From positions 1 to 33,770 of the forward strand of contig JAFGWF010000166.1 in NCBI GenBank assembly GCA_016937295.1: 33,770 nucleotides of DNA, written 5' to 3'. Below, in pieces: positions 23,826-33,770 of the stretch (position 1 is the first letter of the stretch; every line of letters begins with the position of its first letter). Source of the stretch: Bacteroidales bacterium (GTDB lineage: Bacteria; Bacteroidota; Bacteroidia; Bacteroidales; UBA1556). The notes under the pieces were generated by a model that ran no database searches, was not told the DNA's origin, and worked only from the letters and a program-made list of their open reading frames with translations. A program made the position numbers and the translations under genes.

Positions 23826-24314
23826 ATGAAAAAAGTTAGAATAAATTTGAGGGTTGTCTTGATGATGACAATGGGCTTGATAGCTTCAATGCAAGCTAAA
23901 ACACAACTAAATTATGCAGATAGCCTGCAAATGCAATTTGATAGTTTGGATGTAAAGTATTTTCCAAGTGGAATATTATTAAACAGAAGTTTATTGTATT
24001 GGCATTATTTCGATTTTGACACAATAAATCATCAATGGTCATATAACGACTCTATTGATGTGAATCCATTTTTATTTTCATCAATATATGGCTCATATCC
24101 AGGACTATTGCATTGTAATACATGGAGATTTAAATGGTTGTATTATGAAATGCTTAAGTCAGCAGTTTCAGACACAATACTTAGGTCTGATTCTATACAA
24201 TTTGTATATCAAGCTAATGAAATAGCACAATGTGACTTTCCAATTTCACTTATGAATGTAGATTTTCATAACATTAGAAATGATGCCATTGCAGAATGGA
24301 AATCTATATTATGA
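23826..24314 (+). pseudogene. N-terminal fragment of the giant T9SS hydrolase (frame-broken)
   Basis: The ATG at 23826 (MKKVRINLRVVLMMTMGLIA) begins a signal peptide ending near QAKTQ, followed by a beta-rich region with many Asp, Ser and Tyr residues. The frame ends in TGA at 24312-24314 after AIAEWKSIL. The next frame, open from 24262, continues smoothly as NGNLYYDTTINKYTIMPD and runs for 1,500 residues without a signal peptide of its own. One base too many (or two too few) between about 24262 and 24311 explains this. So I read 23826-28848 as one gene with a frameshift, either real decay, a programmed event or a sequencing error. An upstream TTG at 23784 is open but would bury the signal peptide. 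Confidence 0.7.
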
Positions 24315-27300
24315 TACTACCATAAATAAGTACACCATAATGCCTGATACTCTTTTTATTAATGATTCTCTTTTTTCTATAATTGACAATCCTGATAGCC
24401 TAGCTTATACAGGGTTTCAACATAATGATTTATATGCGGCCTGTGCATTAACTCCATATACCTATAAACAAAAAATTGTTGTTGAGCCCATTGAAATTGT
24501 ACATGGACAAGTTGTAAGTCCTCCGAAATCAGGGTGGAAAATTAGTTTTAAATTATGTAGTAATCTATATATTACTAATAAGGATTCTAACCTCCCAAAA
24601 ATAAAAATTAATTTTGATGATGGTAATGGGTATATAGATGTTTCATGGGATTCGATTGTGTTTGTTAAATATATAGATAGCATTAATGCAGTCAAAGAAA
24701 AAAATATAAAAATTAAATTCTCTGATATCAATAGTGAAATGGTAATAGGTTTTCCAGTCAAACTTGTAAATGCTGTCCTGCCTGATACTGTAATTTATTC
24801 AACCGATCTTGGATTTACTTGTCCAATATCGGATCCAAATCCATCATTTTTGGCAGGACAAGCAATGGTTAGCATTAAATACGCTGACGCTATTGAAAAA
24901 AAACTCAGAAAACCATTAATACTTGTGGAGGGTTTTGAAGGTGCTTTAGAAGATTATGGAATAATTCATTATACAGGTGTTGCATCAGGACATATATTAA
25001 ATGCTAATGGTGAGGCTGCTTATGATTGGCTTAACGAACTTCATCTTGTTTATGATACTTTACATAATCATGGTTATGACATCATTCATGTTGACTTTAA
25101 AGATCCACGCACATATATACAAAACAATGGTTTGGCTTTAGTTAAAATCATTCAATATGTTGATAGCATGTTGATTGTTAATAATTCCAGCGAGAAACTT
25201 GTTGTTATTGGTGCCTCAATGGGAGGCCTGATATCCCGATATGCAATTAGGATGATGGAATTGCAAGGCTGTTGCCATAATGTAAGGCTATGGGCTACTT
25301 TTGACAGTCCACATAAAGGAGCTAATATTCCTGTTGGAACTCAAAGGTTTGTAAAAAGTATGCGGGAAGTATATGATAAAACACCAATATTTAAAGGAAA
25401 ATTTGAAGATGCAAAGAATGGGTACGAAAAAGTTCTTTGCAGCCCTGCCGCTGAGCAAATGTTAATTTATCATTTAGAAAACGATGCAACATTATTACAT
25501 AATAATTTCTATAGTTTCTTAGATTCAATTGGCTTACCGGAAAACTGTCGTAGAATAGCAATTTCTAATGGTAATGAAACCGGAATCGGTTTTCAGGGAA
25601 TGGATGCTAGTAAAAGATTAGTTGGAATAAATTGGAGATTATCAGCTCCTTATCATTATAATACTAATATTAATCCAATTTATGATTTCCCTGAGTTTAA
25701 GAAAAAGGATATTTGGGCAGTTGTTGGTTATTCAGAATCAAACTCATACTATTTTAAAAATAATACTTTTAATGGAGCGTTAATATCATATAATGCAGCA
25801 ACCGGATTAGCCTTCACCACAACATCATCTCTTCTTGCACTAGATGCCGGTACTGTAGTATCATTAATTTCTTTAAGCCCGGTTAGTGCTGTAACTGCAC
25901 AAGCAGCGAAATATGGAATTAAAACTGTTGTTAATCCGCCTTTAAATTTTCTATATAATATAGGGCAAAATCATTTTACGAATACAAGTTCACCTTATTC
26001 AATTTGTTTTACGGAAGCTCCCGGGTCAATGTCGGATACACAAAAAGGCATGGATGGTTTTCCTGTAAAAGCTTTTACAGAAAACCATACCTTTATGCCT
26101 ACGCCAACTACATTAAATATGCCTTTAAGCTTTGCCTATTCAAACATCCGTAGTCTATACCTTGCCGACCAATCTATTTCTCCATTCGATGCATATTGGG
26201 CTTGTGACAGAATTGAAGGTTACCCACAAGAAGTAAATATGATGCATGTGGAGTGTAATCTCGATAATCGGGAATGGATAAAAGATCATATTCTTGCTGA
26301 CTGGGAACTTAGAGATGATGTAACAGGATTATATAAAGGAACTCTGACTAGTTATTATAACTATGGAAGACCTAGGCCTGGTTTAAATGAAGATGATATA
26401 ATTATGGTTAACAAGCCTTACCAAACCATTCTCTACAGCTTAGATATTGAAAACAATGGTCAACTCTTTGTTAACAAACAAGACGTGATAGGATTATCCA
26501 ATAGCACATTATATCCAAGACCTGGCAGCACATTTAGACTCAAAACCAATTGCGAACCCTGCGACAGCACCATTGTAAGAATAAAAGACGGAGGGAAATT
26601 CGTAATCGGAGAGGAAAATAATGGCTATCTTAACAAAGGAGAGGTTCATTTTTGCAAGAATTCAACCCTTGAAATTTTTGGAAATGGTTATTTGATTGTT
26701 CGGGATAGCAGCCGCCTGATAATAGAAGAAGGTGCAAATCTGATTATTCATCCCGGAGCTATTGTTTTGCTTGAGGGTTCTGCATCCATCCTTGAACTTA
26801 AAGGAAAGGTTATCATTAAAGATCATGCAGCCCTTGCTCCACAAGGTGATGGATTTATCCGCTTTGCTGCCAAAATGAATGCTAATAATATAAGCGATTA
26901 TTGGCAAGTCGGATTTGCGAGCAGCTTAGTTTTTGCCAGTAATAGTACTAACCAAACCAAGAAAGGGGAAGTAGTGGAAAACACCTATCTACCCGATAAC
27001 TTAAACCAATATTTTATCAATACAATTATTGAATTAGATAGTATGGTTACCTTGAGCAGCTATGGTTCAATTCAGGCCCAGTATTCTAAGTTTATCGCAA
27101 TCGACAGCAATAAATTCTACAATGCCGTAAAAGTCTATGGACAACCCAACATTCGTTTTGGTAGTTGTGAGTTTAGAAACGGTAACTATGGACTTTCCGC
27201 CCAAATGAGTTATGGAGGTAGTACATTTGCCCTTGATACTTGTACCTTTACCAAAAATTATATTGGCCTATACACTTCCGATGAGTACATCTTTATCAAT

Positions 27301-28848
27301 AAATGCGATTTTATTGAAAACCTTGATTACGGCTGGAAAGCAGAAAACATGCAATCCAACTGCGATGTAACAAATTCCGTGTTTGATGATAATGGTTATG
27401 CAGGAGCCTATTTCAATGGGCAAGGCAATGTAACCCTGAATGTAAATTGGTCTAAATTCCGAAATAATTACCAACATGGAATGGAGATTTCGGAGGCCAC
27501 ACTGAATTCGTCATGCAGTAAATACCAATCCAATGGACAATCAGGTATCTTTGCTAAAGAAAATGCGGAGCTTGATTTATCAGGCAATAAAATGAACCAA
27601 ATAACCAATAATTATACAGGCGTTTTGTTAGATAAGGCGCTGACTTTAAATATTGAGCATGGTTTTAATAATTTCACCGGCAATCAATATTTTATTGTTG
27701 GTGAGGTAAAACCCGATAATTATTATTTGGGTATGAATAATACAGCACCATTAAACTTGCAATACAATCTATTACCTGCTCCTTCGGCAATGCAAATGCC
27801 CATAAATGTATATTTGTATGACCCCACTTATAATAATCAATTTATCTTAGGTCTGGATAATTGGACGCAGAACCTTTCATCATTTGAAACCTATTGTATT
27901 GGAAGTCCGATTCCTCCAAACTTTTATAATTATCAAATGTTTGAAGGAAAGATAAGCACGGCGGTTATAAGTACAGCTCATTTCCAAAACACCTACTTGA
28001 TGGATGCATTTAAATCGGCAGCCATGCAAATGAGCTATGGAATTGATTATATGGGTAATGATACCCTATCAATTGCCTTATTCAAAGAGATATTCGACAA
28101 TATTCCTGCAAGTGTAAACGATGATGAACATAACGCCATTGATGACGCATTGAATCTTATGATTTCTGCCTTGACTTACGCCATAGAATATGAATTAATT
28201 GACCCGAACAGGGCATTAGACGGAATGCCTGTGGATGAGTATGTGGCCATGATTGCTGATGAAATTCAGAATCGTTTGAATGACATTGAATATGCTAATC
28301 TTTATGCTGAGGAACAAGAAGCCTATTATCAACTGCTTTTGGCTCAAATGTACCGTGCTGCCGAACATTATGATTATGCTTTGGCTATTTTGCAAAACGA
28401 CAATTACTTCTTCAACACGACTCTGAAAAATCAGGCTGATTACTGGAATTGTGTGTGTATGGCTGAAAATCTTTTGCTAAAAGACAGCATTGAACGTTCA
28501 GAATATAATATGAGAATAGATAGTTGCCATGCAATGAGCGCAGCTAAATTGACCAGTTTCCATCCAATTTTTGGGACTAACTCCGTAAACCTTGATGAAT
28601 CAAATAACCAACTGATAGCCATTTATCCAAACCCTGCCGAACAACTTATAGCAGTTGAATTTAGCGAAAGAATTGAAGATGCAAGCGTTGAACTAATGGA
28701 TATTTCTGGCAAAGGGATTTGGTCAACCCATCAAATAGTGAAAGGCAAGCAAATACGATTGAAACTTCCGCAACTAAATAGCGGCACTTATTTGCTTAAA
28801 ATTATAACTAATAACGAAGTATATAATAATAAAGTAATTATTAAATAG
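24280..28848 (+). CDS. Giant T9SS-secreted alpha/beta-hydrolase with beta-helix (main part, lacks own signal peptide)
   Basis: The 1,522-residue frame has several parts. Residues 1-200 are beta-rich. An alpha/beta-hydrolase follows (about 205-680), with ILVEGFEG, a nucleophile S313 in VIGASMGGLISRYA, FDSPHKGANIP (341-351) and a likely catalytic His in FTENHTFMPT (about 605). This resembles PGAP1/DUF676-like lipases and esterases. Then comes a right-handed parallel beta-helix (about 710-1145), with repeats such as NGYLIVRDSSRLIIEEGANLI and CDFIENLDYGWKAENM. A helical segment (about 1180-1440) precedes a type A T9SS sorting domain (about 1450-1522: IYPNPAEQLIAVEF, VELMDISGKGIW, SGTYLLKIITNNE). 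Its true start is probably the fragment at 23826. The substrate is unknown. The first two thirds are more AT-rich than the last third. Confidence 0.8.
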   Translation: MMPLQNGNLYYDTTINKYTIMPDTLFINDSLFSIIDNPDSLAYTGFQHNDLYAACALTPYTYKQKIVVEPIEIVHGQVVSPPKSGWKISFKLCSNLYITNKDSNLPKIKINFDDGNGYIDVSWDSIVFVKYIDSINAVKEKNIKIKFSDINSEMVIGFPVKLVNAVLPDTVIYSTDLGFTCPISDPNPSFLAGQAMVSIKYADAIEKKLRKPLILVEGFEGALEDYGIIHYTGVASGHILNANGEAAYDWLNELHLVYDTLHNHGYDIIHVDFKDPRTYIQNNGLALVKIIQYVDSMLIVNNSSEKLVVIGASMGGLISRYAIRMMELQGCCHNVRLWATFDSPHKGANIPVGTQRFVKSMREVYDKTPIFKGKFEDAKNGYEKVLCSPAAEQMLIYHLENDATLLHNNFYSFLDSIGLPENCRRIAISNGNETGIGFQGMDASKRLVGINWRLSAPYHYNTNINPIYDFPEFKKKDIWAVVGYSESNSYYFKNNTFNGALISYNAATGLAFTTTSSLLALDAGTVVSLISLSPVSAVTAQAAKYGIKTVVNPPLNFLYNIGQNHFTNTSSPYSICFTEAPGSMSDTQKGMDGFPVKAFTENHTFMPTPTTLNMPLSFAYSNIRSLYLADQSISPFDAYWACDRIEGYPQEVNMMHVECNLDNREWIKDHILADWELRDDVTGLYKGTLTSYYNYGRPRPGLNEDDIIMVNKPYQTILYSLDIENNGQLFVNKQDVIGLSNSTLYPRPGSTFRLKTNCEPCDSTIVRIKDGGKFVIGEENNGYLNKGEVHFCKNSTLEIFGNGYLIVRDSSRLIIEEGANLIIHPGAIVLLEGSASILELKGKVIIKDHAALAPQGDGFIRFAAKMNANNISDYWQVGFASSLVFASNSTNQTKKGEVVENTYLPDNLNQYFINTIIELDSMVTLSSYGSIQAQYSKFIAIDSNKFYNAVKVYGQPNIRFGSCEFRNGNYGLSAQMSYGGSTFALDTCTFTKNYIGLYTSDEYIFINKCDFIENLDYGWKAENMQSNCDVTNSVFDDNGYAGAYFNGQGNVTLNVNWSKFRNNYQHGMEISEATLNSSCSKYQSNGQSGIFAKENAELDLSGNKMNQITNNYTGVLLDKALTLNIEHGFNNFTGNQYFIVGEVKPDNYYLGMNNTAPLNLQYNLLPAPSAMQMPINVYLYDPTYNNQFILGLDNWTQNLSSFETYCIGSPIPPNFYNYQMFEGKISTAVISTAHFQNTYLMDAFKSAAMQMSYGIDYMGNDTLSIALFKEIFDNIPASVNDDEHNAIDDALNLMISALTYAIEYELIDPNRALDGMPVDEYVAMIADEIQNRLNDIEYANLYAEEQEAYYQLLLAQMYRAAEHYDYALAILQNDNYFFNTTLKNQADYWNCVCMAENLLLKDSIERSEYNMRIDSCHAMSAAKLTSFHPIFGTNSVNLDESNNQLIAIYPNPAEQLIAVEFSERIEDASVELMDISGKGIWSTHQIVKGKQIRLKLPQLNSGTYLLKIITNNEVYNNKVIIK

Positions 28849-30597: not shown

Positions 30598-32022
30598 ATG
30601 AATAATTTTAATCTTATTCCAACTGAAAAAGTCATCGAACGACTTCGATATGAAAACCCGTGGTGGATAAACATGAGAATACCTGAAGCTTATAGTTCAA
30701 TGTCTAAGCGTTTGTATTTCAATTTGTTTTACCCTTTTGTGGTCGATAAGGAGGTTAACAGGGCTGTTGTACTAATGGGGCCAAGACGTGTAGGAAAAAC
30801 AGTAATGTTATTTCATAGCATCCAACAACTAATTGAAGAAGAAGTAAATCCCCAAAAAATCTTCTTTGTGGGTATTGATAACCCTATTTATTTGCATTTG
30901 AGTCTGGAGGATATTTTGAGTCTATTCGGAAAAACGCAAAACTTAACCGAACTTAAAGGATGCTATGTGTTTTTTGATGAGATTCAATATCTGAAGGATT
31001 GGGAGCGTCACTTAAAAATCTTAGTCGATATTTATCCAGACACCAAATTTATTGTTTCGGGTTCAGCAACTGCTGCTTTGAAATGGCACAGTATGGAAAG
31101 CGGAGCCGGTCGTTTTACCGATTTTTTATTGCCACCACTTACTTTCCAAGAGTACATTCATTTAAAAAATCTAAACCACCTCATTTTCAGTGTAAGTAAA
31201 GATTTTAGCAAAGAGGTATTCCCTTCTTTTCTGACTCATGATGTAAAAGTTCTAAACATGGAGTTTATAAACTATATAAATTTTGGCGGGTTTCCCGAAG
31301 TAGTCATGTCTGAAAAAATCCATGGTAATATGGGGCGATATGTAAAAAACGATATTATTGATAAAGTTCTACTCAAAGATTTACCGAGTTTATATGGTAT
31401 TAAAGATGTGCAGGAATTAAACCGTTTTTTTTCTTATATCGCATTTAATACCGGCAATGAATTTTCATACGAAAATATGTCAAAGGATAGCGGAATTCAA
31501 AAGGAAACATTGAAAAAATATCTTGAATACTTAGAGGCTGCTTTTTTGATAAAAGTCCTTTATAAAGTAGATAATAATGCAAAGCGATTGAAAAGAATTA
31601 CAAGTTTTAAAGTATATCTGACCAATCCATCTATACGAACAGCTTTGTTTTCGCCAATTACTGCAACTGATAGTGAAATGGGAAATATGGTGGAAACTGC
31701 CCTTGTTTCGCAATGGATGAATCATCAAAATTTAGATTTAACTTATGCCCGATGGAAAAATGGCAAAAATGAAGGTGAAGTGGATTTGGTATTAGTCGAT
31801 AATAAAAAGTTTGAACCAGTTTGGAGTTTAGAAATAAAATGGAGTAACCGTTTTTTAGAAAAACCTCAGGAATTGAAGAGTTTAATAAGTTTTTGTAAAA
31901 CAAACGGTTTGCAAAATGCATGGATTACAACAATAGACCAATCAGGAGTTAAAGTGGTTGATACCTTGCAGTTTTCCTTCTTGCCTGCATCTGTTTATTC
32001 TTATAACATTGCTTTAAGGTAG
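30598..32022 (+). CDS. AAA-type ATPase with DUF4143 C-terminal domain
   Basis: The 474-residue protein has an ATPase domain (about 50-190) with a Walker A loop GPRRVGKTV (61-69), a Walker B strand YVFFDEIQ (123-130), a sensor-like FIVSGSA (151-157) and the family motif GAGRFTDFLLPPLTFQEY (169-186). A winged-helix-like middle part follows (about 290-345, SGIQKETLKKYLEYLEAAFLI). The C-terminal DUF4143 region ends in an endonuclease-like fold with GEVDLVLVD and SLEIKWS (about 398-428), echoing the PD-(D/E)XK pattern. Such genes are common and mobile in Bacteroidota and archaea; their role is not established. It stands alone with its own promoter. Confidence 0.9.
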   Translation: MNNFNLIPTEKVIERLRYENPWWINMRIPEAYSSMSKRLYFNLFYPFVVDKEVNRAVVLMGPRRVGKTVMLFHSIQQLIEEEVNPQKIFFVGIDNPIYLHLSLEDILSLFGKTQNLTELKGCYVFFDEIQYLKDWERHLKILVDIYPDTKFIVSGSATAALKWHSMESGAGRFTDFLLPPLTFQEYIHLKNLNHLIFSVSKDFSKEVFPSFLTHDVKVLNMEFINYINFGGFPEVVMSEKIHGNMGRYVKNDIIDKVLLKDLPSLYGIKDVQELNRFFSYIAFNTGNEFSYENMSKDSGIQKETLKKYLEYLEAAFLIKVLYKVDNNAKRLKRITSFKVYLTNPSIRTALFSPITATDSEMGNMVETALVSQWMNHQNLDLTYARWKNGKNEGEVDLVLVDNKKFEPVWSLEIKWSNRFLEKPQELKSLISFCKTNGLQNAWITTIDQSGVKVVDTLQFSFLPASVYSYNIALR

Positions 32023-32127: not shown

Positions 32128-32166
32128 AAAAAAAAACCGTTTTCTGCCAAACAGCAGAAAACGGTT
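32128..32166 (-). terminator. Strong Rho-independent terminator of the TonB/DUF4625 operon
   Basis: A perfect 13-bp stem (AACCGTTTTCTGC at 32135-32147 with GCAGAAAACGGTT at 32154-32166) and a 6-nt loop is followed on the minus strand by seven T residues. It lies 20 nt after the last DUF4625 gene. Confidence 0.92.
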
Positions 32167-32185: not shown

Positions 32186-32668
32186 CTATTTTAAAATCTT
32201 AACACTCAGCCCTTTCTGAACCGACCAGCCCGATTTGTCGGTCAAGCTGATAAAAAAGTGATAATCTCCCGTGTCATAATCTCCGATAGCATCCCCTAAA
32301 GGCAAAAGAATCTCTTGGGTGAATATGACATCAGTACTTCCATCAGCAATGGAGAAATCTCGGGTAAAAACTAATGGATTTACAGGTGTTTTAATTGGAT
32401 CGAACACACAGGGATTAATCTCAGTGGAATGATTATGATGATCGAAATTATGGTGAATATCGATGCTCAACGATCCCAATTCCACATTATCCGTCAGCCG
32501 TAGTTTGAGCGAAAATGTCTGACCGAAGTAAATGGTATCGCAGTTGTTTGGGAAAGCTCCTGCAACTGTTAAGTCAATCTCAGGTTTTTCCTGATCGGGC
32601 TCCGATTTCTCACATCCCGACGAAAAGATTAGAAGAACAGAAAATGTGAACAGAAAAACTTGTTTCAT
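32186..32668 (-). CDS. DUF4625-type lipoprotein, single domain, histidine-rich
   Basis: The 160-residue protein has a lipoprotein signal (LLIFSSGC, Cys19) followed by EKSEPDQEKPEIDL. One immunoglobulin-like DUF4625-type domain fills the rest: FGQTFSLKLRLTDNVELGSLSIDIHH, the cluster NFDHHNHS (about 73-80), then GDYDTGDYHFFISLTDKSGWS. It has the same plan as each half of the next gene upstream. The His cluster could bind a metal, but that is inference. It is the last gene of a tight minus-strand operon (12 nt after its neighbour) and is closed by the terminator at 32128-32166. Confidence 0.8.
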   Translation of the reverse strand: MKQVFLFTFSVLLIFSSGCEKSEPDQEKPEIDLTVAGAFPNNCDTIYFGQTFSLKLRLTDNVELGSLSIDIHHNFDHHNHSTEINPCVFDPIKTPVNPLVFTRDFSIADGSTDVIFTQEILLPLGDAIGDYDTGDYHFFISLTDKSGWSVQKGLSVKILK

Positions 32669-32680
32669 AGCTCATAGATT

Positions 32681-33484
32681 TTATAGTAAAACAATAGGAT
32701 AATGCTGCGAAAAAGCCCAATTGCCGGAGGCATCTTTGACCTTAACTAATAGATAGTAATCGGCTGATTGCCACCACCCTCCTGTGGTCAAATCTTTTGG
32801 AGGATTGTTATTGTCGGAGGCCGCACCAACGATAATTTGTGCCGAAAAATCATATTGAAGCGGATTGGTGAAAGCGTGAATATGGAGCATGGTTATGGTG
32901 TTTGTTGCTCCAACTTCAGCATCGGTAAGATTCAAACCATTGCGCACTAAACCAATATACAATCCGCCTAAACTCACATTGTCTGTCACTCTCCCGGAAA
33001 TAGTGATCGTGTCGCCGGTGGCAAAACTCTGATTACTAACAGGGACTTGATTGATTAGAATTTGGGGCAGTTCCGAATCTACGTTTATCCCAATATGCAA
33101 TTCCCCTTCCCATTCGGTAGATTGCCCTTCATTATCAACAACTTTCAAATGAAAATGATAGTCGCCTGTATCCGCTGTAGCCGGAATTTCGATATGCTCA
33201 TGAAAATTGCTGTTTTTCAAACCGACAAATTTGGCATAACTTGTATCAAACTCCCAACTGCCCGAAAATTCCGGATGAATTTCTATCGACACGGAACTGA
33301 TAACTCCCTCCGCCTCAATGTCGCCTTCCACATGAAGGTCGCTTCCGGTAAAAGCTTCACCGCTATTATTATAGCCCAATTCGGAAATGGTAACGATAGG
33401 TTTGTTAGGTAGTGAGTCCTCTTTTTTACAACTAAACCCGATAAAAATCAAGGTTGCCAATAAAATAAATGATATGGTTTTCAT
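32681..33484 (-). CDS. DUF4625-type lipoprotein with two domains
   Basis: The 267-residue protein has a lipoprotein signal (LIFIGFSC, Cys19) and two immunoglobulin-like repeats. The first (about 28-132) has FTGSDLHVEGDIEAEG, SVSIEIHPEF, FHEHIEIP and TGDYHFHLKVVDNEGQST. The second (about 140-266) has FATGDTITISGRVTDNVSLGGLYIGL, MLHIHAF and SADYYLLVKVKDASGNW. The shared order (gap, G-x-x-x-x-x-G-x-xxDN, long loop with His, GDYHF/ADYYL, KDxxG) shows that both halves and the 160-residue neighbour are copies of one domain. It starts 2 nt after the TonB-receptor stop, so it belongs to the receptor operon and probably sits on the cell envelope near that receptor. Confidence 0.8.
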   Translation of the reverse strand: MKTISFILLATLIFIGFSCKKEDSLPNKPIVTISELGYNNSGEAFTGSDLHVEGDIEAEGVISSVSIEIHPEFSGSWEFDTSYAKFVGLKNSNFHEHIEIPATADTGDYHFHLKVVDNEGQSTEWEGELHIGINVDSELPQILINQVPVSNQSFATGDTITISGRVTDNVSLGGLYIGLVRNGLNLTDAEVGATNTITMLHIHAFTNPLQYDFSAQIIVGAASDNNNPPKDLTTGGWWQSADYYLLVKVKDASGNWAFSQHYPIVLL

Positions 33485-33486
33485 AA

Positions 33487-33770
33487 TTAATTCTTGTTTA
33501 AAAATGTTTTAAATGGTATTTGAATATTTAAAATAAAGTTTCTTCCTGCTTCGGGAAGATTAATTAAACGATAATAACTTGTATGATTAAAATACTTATT
33601 GTTCAATACGTTATGAATTTGAAGTCCAATTTGAATTTCCGTTTTTCCAAGAGAAATTGTACTCCCAAAAGATAGATTTACCAAAAAATATCCCTCCGTT
33701 ATTTCTTCGGGAGGTACAATTCTATTTTGTGCTGCGACTAATTTCAAATCCGTCGAAATATAGGGCTGAA
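33487..33770 (-). CDS. TonB-dependent receptor (C-terminal end only)
   Basis: The minus-strand frame runs off the window edge. The visible 93 or so residues form the last strands of an outer-membrane TonB-dependent barrel: YFLVNLSFGSTISLGKTEIQIGLQIHNVLNNKYFNHTSYYRLINLPEAGRNFILNI with the typical NVLNNKYF turn and an aromatic-poor end at KTFLNKN. The Asn-Val-Leu-Asn-x-x-Tyr and PEAGRNF patterns are strong marks of this family. The ligand cannot be told from this part. It begins the operon that carries two DUF4625-type lipoproteins. Confidence 0.88.
   Translation of the reverse strand, partial: QPYISTDLKLVAAQNRIVPPEEITEGYFLVNLSFGSTISLGKTEIQIGLQIHNVLNNKYFNHTSYYRLINLPEAGRNFILNIQIPFKTFLNKN

Follow-up and report, generated by a model that had tools for sequence, protein, structure and literature searches.

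A Bacteroidota gene cluster joining DUF4625 lipoproteins to a ZnuD-like receptor: a probable zinc-starvation operon

The DNA analysed here, called the window, is a 33,770-nucleotide stretch of a Bacteroidales bacterium (contig JAFGWF010000166.1 of assembly GCA_016937295.1). We show here that the operon at its end is the tail end of a gene cluster that is widespread in Bacteroidota. As far as the sequence allows a judgment, the window would hold the downstream half of an operon for metal starvation, with zinc as the most probable metal, a reading to which we give a probability of about two in three. That the operon serves outer-membrane metal uptake, as the earlier note on this DNA had proposed, is supported by a Fur-family gene with a palindrome, by lipoprotein histidines kept in 15 of 17 proteins and by ZnuD as the best solved match of the receptor. 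Zinc would be the metal favoured, because of the ZnuD match, the Asp-His pair in the receptor plug, the AztD-like neighbours and, in Carboxylicivirga, the palindrome before znuA.

The features of the operon are collected in Table 1. The receptor fragment, with its codons at 33487-33768, shares 94% identity with residues 715-807 of the receptor of a genome from the same genus (G005, locus L045). It is separated from the gene of protein B by 2 nt (33485-33486), and 12 nt (32669-32680) lie between the genes of B and A. A TonB receptor ahead of DUF4625 genes on the same strand, with these gaps and one shared terminator, had been described in the earlier note, and the coordinates agree with it. The terminator, at 32166-32135, has 14 pairs and a T run; the histidine clusters named there are likewise present in the translations of A and B. 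The note had further counted three copies of the domain. Two of them are clear, while the third, domain 2 of B, is divergent and at 22.5 bits alone stays below the cut-off, hence the count is better given as two clear copies and one divergent copy. H261 of B lies directly past domain 2 in sequence order. The plus-strand gene at 30598-32022 is an AAA_14/DUF4143 gene unrelated to the DUF4625 operon. Elsewhere in the window, positions 24280-28848 hold a 1522-aa ORF, the C-terminus of which resembles by eye a type IX secretion sorting domain.

Table 1. Features of the DUF4625 operon; positions are those of the window unless a locus is named.
Feature	Position	Strand	Basis or remark
ZnuD-like TonB-dependent receptor, C-terminal 93 residues	33487-33770	-	open at contig end
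Protein B, two-domain DUF4625 lipoprotein, 267 aa, Cys19	32681-33484	-	Pfam E 7.7e-29, two stretches
DUF4625 domain 1 of B; H51, H70, H95, H97, H110, H112	33092-33436	-	79.9 bits
Divergent DUF4625 domain 2 of B; H201, H203 (LHIHAF)	32720-33079	-	22.5 bits alone, below cut-off
Protein A, single-domain DUF4625 lipoprotein, 160 aa, Cys19	32186-32668	-	Pfam E 7.6e-32
His cluster DIHHNFDHHNHS of A, residues 70-81; H72, H78, H80 conserved	32426-32461	-	translation, alignment
Intrinsic terminator of the operon	32135-32166	-	14-pair stem, loop 4, T run
Small His/Cys protein of the window genome	L055 1806-2153		

The window corresponds exactly to one contig of its genome (G000:C275), and the contig break falls inside the receptor gene, thus the upstream part of the operon lies outside the window. 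With the 807-aa receptor of G005 (L045) as query, residues 1-565 were recovered at 83% identity on a second contig of the window's own genome (G000:C223, 3077 bp; locus L055). Since the two contigs cover residues 1-565 and 715-807, about 149 codons are in neither of them, and the two receptor pieces were kept separate and unjoined. On C223, a gene for a Fur-family protein and one for a 115-aa protein that contains histidines and closes with an RGPP motif stand ahead of the receptor in the same direction, and a small lipoprotein-like gene is found before both. A palindrome at 2573-2591 of L055 lies 19-37 nt ahead of the likely ATG (2554) of the Fur-family gene. The earlier note had advised looking for a Zur/Fur-type site in the upstream part of the operon; in the same genome the operon is indeed headed by a Fur-family gene, with the palindrome just before it.

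A profile made from 11 proteins gave at least 594 matching stretches in the named genome contigs, of which at least 578 were confirmed; the best 80 of these were kept, and all counts out of 80 loci given here refer to this best-scoring set. The receptor is found in the same operon as DUF4625 in 69 of the 80 loci (67 by script, L132 and L146 from gene lists), that is in all but two of the 71 whose flanks reach far enough, indicating an association beyond chance. Nine loci run off the contig end, and in two (L074, L087) the receptor is absent from the operon. Two DUF4625 genes lie on the strand in 73 of the 80, one in six and three in a single locus. When the neighbours of the 80 loci were clustered, with not every neighbour annotated, the only clusters common to at least ten loci were DUF4625, the receptor, the small His protein, Fur and the AztD-like protein. 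Gene order varies in detail: five of the six Flavobacterium loci among the best 80 have lipoproteins, receptor and AztD-like gene in this order, and Flavobacterium L131 has lipoprotein, receptor, lipoprotein and AztD-like gene. A DUF4625 match was present in 19 genomes out of a set of 60 that contains the window's own (18 over the cut-off) and in 19 of 345 genomes across Bacteroidota (16 over the cut-off).

Proteins A and B are both members of DUF4625 (PF15418; 110.8 and 101.1 bits against a gathering score of 27). Pfam states no function for this family, and a literature search without most subscription journals found no paper that names it. The pattern used to search for relatives, [IV]HxNF[DN]xH[ST]H, includes H72, H78 and H80, hence the best-80 set cannot test these three residues. 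For each of H72, H78, H80 and H137, the histidine is retained in 15 of 17 mostly single-domain proteins that were chosen from the profile hits without any His pattern (set A1), so that the conservation of histidines on which the earlier note had made its reading depend is found in proteins unselected for His. In neither of the two exceptions, L047 and L051, does a neighbour match the window receptor fragment; the same is true of L042 and L048, which keep the histidines. In domain 1 of B (set A5, 53 proteins) H51, H95 and H97 are kept in 51 proteins each, H70 in 47, H110 in 43 and H112 in 39. For domain 2, H201 and H203 are kept in 31 of 39 and H261 in 41 of 45. Two ORFs of about 450 aa (G000:C219:3087-3236, L006; G005:C14:129590-129751, L054) have a weak partial DUF4625 match below the cut-off and lie apart from any receptor of the ZnuD-like kind.

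Structure models of A and B (mean pLDDT 94.0 and 92.6) have the appearance of Ig-type sandwiches. In the model of A, H72 closes one strand and H137 stands near the beginning of another, making it plausible that both contribute to one shared site. Foldseek and VIA-align searches with the DUF4625 models returned only generic matches of the Ig-like, FnIII-like or PKD-like kind, and for this reason a known metal-binding fold for DUF4625 was rejected. A sequence search of the PDB with DUF4625 likewise gave weak matches only, the best (0.0023) to a KIAA0319-like protein. In VIA-align, the A model matched best the agarose-binding module 8wac (Z 9.5, 104 residues, 2.7 A, 11% identity), from which one might read a carbohydrate uptake operon with DUF4625 as the carbohydrate-binding module. 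This is very improbable: a shared Ig-like fold carries no functional proof, the conserved lipoprotein histidines count against a sugar, and we rejected carbohydrate uptake on the score of the receptor against the SusC/RagA model TIGR04056 (78.5 bits, far under the cut-off of 368.25) and on the widely shared gene clusters, which hold no sugar gene among neighbours that were clustered and not all annotated. The lipobox Cys is followed within seven residues by at least two Asp or Glu in 64 of the 65 A proteins and in 46 of the 51 B proteins; acidic residues in this place are a surface-export signal in Bacteroidota, and the DUF4625 lipoproteins are probably located on the cell surface.

Among solved structures, the L045 receptor is matched best by ZnuD (5.1e-18), followed by BtuB (6e-11), OprC (1.1e-8 to 2.9e-8) and ShuA (6.2e-8). 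The two plug zinc ligands of ZnuD are Asp-99 and His-100 (PMC4557270). This pair aligns with D193-H194 of the receptor, and D193 is kept in 68 and H194 in 71 of 72 aligned receptors, a set that includes one second, His-poor receptor of L082; the pair is also present in the receptor half of the window genome (L055). With a chain offset of 14, which fits both the Asp-His pair and His-499, the latter faces N578, and H580, kept in 70 of 72, stands two columns on. Glu-340 of ZnuD lies outside the aligned stretches of the receptor. Against the ZnuD model NF038289 the L045 receptor scores 131.8 bits, below the curated cut-off of 950, and it carries an N-terminal CarbopepD_reg_2 domain. In the NCBIfam ranking ZnuD comes first for L045 and the TonB-hemin model (TIGR01785) first for the other three of the four receptors compared with it and for L132, all of them far below cut-off.

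Such a ranking, with the TonB-hemin score near or above that of ZnuD, would suit haem or iron uptake by a haem-type receptor, with the lipoproteins as haemophores like HmuY, and ZnuD itself structurally resembles haem receptors (PMC4557270). We nevertheless consider this reading unlikely, since solved haem receptors match far worse (ShuA 6.2e-8 against 5.1e-18 for ZnuD), and the conserved Asp-His pair of the ZnuD type and the AztD-like neighbours speak against haem. Copper uptake or handling through an OprC-like receptor, with which OprC among the solved matches is in line and which the small His/Cys proteins could suit, appears quite improbable: OprC is a far poorer match than ZnuD and covers the C-terminal part only, and the TonB-copper model reaches 56 bits at a cut-off of 472.

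If zinc is the metal, the regulator encoded at the head of many of these operons would be its sensor. A Fur cluster is present in 31 of the 80 best loci, in 30 of them on the operon strand, and the regulators of L045, L041, L040, L116 and L161 match PF01475. HxHxxCxxC and GxCxxC are found in 25 of 25 aligned regulators, and with them the structural CxxC...CxxC of Zur. By score, the regulator is not closest to Zur: Fur and PerR models are placed first by PDB and NCBIfam comparison, the best PDB match being Fur (2.1e-14), with the Zur-type entries 2o03 at 7.2e-11 and 4mtd at 1.7e-10. Its closeness to Fur would also fit haem or iron.

The candidate operator TTTGCAACATTGTTGCAAA was derived from the stretches ahead of Fur-headed operons, the same set in which it was then counted. 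Within 4 mismatches it is present in 30 of these 32 operons (28 of 30 in a fair count, because contigs L041/L095 and L040/L071 are each twice in the set), compared with 26 of 1380 stretches drawn at random from the same loci and 0 of 1380 shuffles. Operons headed by the small protein have it in 5 of 17 cases and those headed by the receptor in 3 of 20. Palindrome strength alone hardly separates upstream regions from shuffles (6.90 versus 6.61 of 9 pairs). Across 14 genomes, at most 3 mismatches gave 111 matches to TTTGCAACATTGTTGCAAA versus 23 to the reversed word, a tally in which both strands of a palindromic site may be counted. Of the copies inspected, several lie inside genes; palindromes within coding sequences (L196, L202 and L203 among others) were set aside as probable chance. 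Copies were found ahead of znuABC in Carboxylicivirga marina (L199; ZnuA 2.7e-56); in Carboxylicivirga sp. A043 the palindrome stands before znuA and before a gene for a COG0523 protein, a group that forms part of zinc-starvation regulons. Overall, the palindrome precedes 3 of 12 znuA genes, one weakly and two clearly, with two of the three in a single genome, and 1 of 12 COG0523 genes (the 12 best of 50 CobW matches). A general zinc regulon defined by the palindrome was rejected, as it is clear at znuA and COG0523 genes in Carboxylicivirga only; with so few such genes carrying it, the link to zinc genes is seen in Carboxylicivirga and unproven elsewhere. Other copies stand before different genes. 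In L198 (G409:C89) a copy with 3 mismatches at 2624-2642 precedes a gene for a His-rich DUF6769 protein; next come a His-rich membrane-fusion protein of the HlyD type and, by eye, an RND-like gene, as in metal efflux. In L200 (G413:C39), from Dyadobacter flavalbus (G413), a copy at 2349-2367 is followed by a Pyr_redox_2 oxidoreductase gene, and a similar gene occurs at 14055-15056 of L164, near the zinc-type cluster there.

The small His/Cys protein occurs in 47 of the 80 best loci, ending in [RK][AGS]PP in all 47 and carrying CxxC in 44; the small His/Cys proteins scanned gave no Pfam match over the cut-off and one weak match to DUF2946 (0.2). An AztD-like gene is found in 13 of the 80 best loci, with a PDB match to AztD of 2.7e-21 and a score of 84.9 bits against NF038015, below the curated cut-off of 400. 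AztD has two zinc sites, which were used to define motifs (PMC6689063), and the motifs of both sites so defined are kept in 12 or 13 of the 13 AztD-like neighbours. MerC and GTP cyclohydrolase I (FolE) are encoded near the operon in only 4 of 86 loci (L161, L164, L126 and L111), each with a Fur-family gene; L161 and L164 were brought in through a match to a NikR-linked protein. Around the L164 operon we find Fur-family, MerC and FolE genes, two CobW/COG0523 genes and an ABC unit. Searches of G000, G005, G003, G033 and G413 recovered no ZnuA; in the window genome (G000), at 92% completeness, ZIP matches occur at two places.

One genome points to a different metal. In the second DUF4625 operon of G047 (L039, G047:C26, 451-4368), a NikR gene over its curated cut-off (NF003381, 141 bits, cut-off 105) lies 32 nt before the receptor. 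Another NikR gene in G047, with 72% identity to the first, is found some 6 kb away from the other DUF4625 operon (L038). With one operon headed by NikR, nickel variants may exist, and the gene set as a whole could be read as a nickel (or cobalt) uptake system or as one chassis for several metals that are specified by the regulator. We hold this to be rather unlikely: the NikR-headed operon occurs in one genome only, and the AztD-like gene and the Carboxylicivirga palindromes indicate zinc rather than nickel. Among the 345 Bacteroidota genomes, DUF4625 is present in 19 and NikR in 64, but none has both, and on this count nickel as the main metal was rejected.

Gene order, protein families, conserved residues and the palindrome are read from the sequence itself; we infer the metal, the surface location, the hand-over and the regulation in the following scheme for zinc. 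When zinc falls, the Fur-family repressor, encoded by the first gene, would leave TTTGCAACATTGTTGCAAA ahead of its own start codon. The operon would then provide the small His/Cys protein, the ZnuD-like TonB-dependent receptor and the two DUF4625 lipoproteins. The latter, Ig-like beta sandwiches with conserved histidines and probably at the surface, would bind zinc and hand it to the receptor, which may move the metal through the outer membrane with the help of its plug Asp-His pair. An AztD-like chaperone encoded downstream would join them in some relatives. In the window genome, where ZnuA was not found, ZIP carriers could serve the inner-membrane step.

Judged from titles and abstracts, with most subscription journals outside the search, we found no description of an outer-membrane zinc uptake system of Bacteroidota. 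The scheme offers a testable function for a domain of unknown function found across this phylum and would name a whole operon for zinc uptake: sensor, operator, small His/Cys protein, receptor, lipoproteins and sometimes an AztD-like chaperone. Direct tests are within practical reach, since Flavobacterium, Pedobacter, Carboxylicivirga and Labilibaculum include relatives in culture.

Three known systems invite comparison. ZnuD of Neisseria (PDB 4rdr, NF038289) is the best solved match, with Asp-99/His-100 corresponding to D193/H194 and a conserved histidine near the place of His-499. The receptor of the window type differs in staying below the ZnuD cut-off, in its CarbopepD_reg_2 domain and in sharing an operon with DUF4625 lipoproteins. 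Most probably, this would be uptake of the ZnuD type, a known type, in which the DUF4625 lipoprotein partners are new; such a partner, if true, is a new twist on ZnuD-type transport. AztD of the AztABCD system (PDB 6cmk, NF038015) has its counterpart in the 13 AztD-like neighbours with the motifs of both zinc sites; the AztD-like gene, however, stands beside the operon in some relatives only, is absent from the window's operon and scores below the curated cut-off. In the XusA/XusB system of Bacteroides thetaiotaomicron, a ligand-binding lipoprotein and a TonB-dependent transporter take up xenosiderophores (PMC12574912). Here the likeness is one of arrangement, a lipoprotein paired with a TonB-dependent transporter, whereas the XusA/XusB ligand is ferric enterobactin. 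Somewhat short of an even chance, we would place the tentative idea that DUF4625 proteins are surface metal-catching lipoproteins that partner the ZnuD-like receptor as XusB does XusA, forming a lipoprotein-assisted system for bare zinc with a distinct Fur-family sensor and the operator TTTGCAACATTGTTGCAAA, and that at least one lineage has been re-wired to nickel under NikR.
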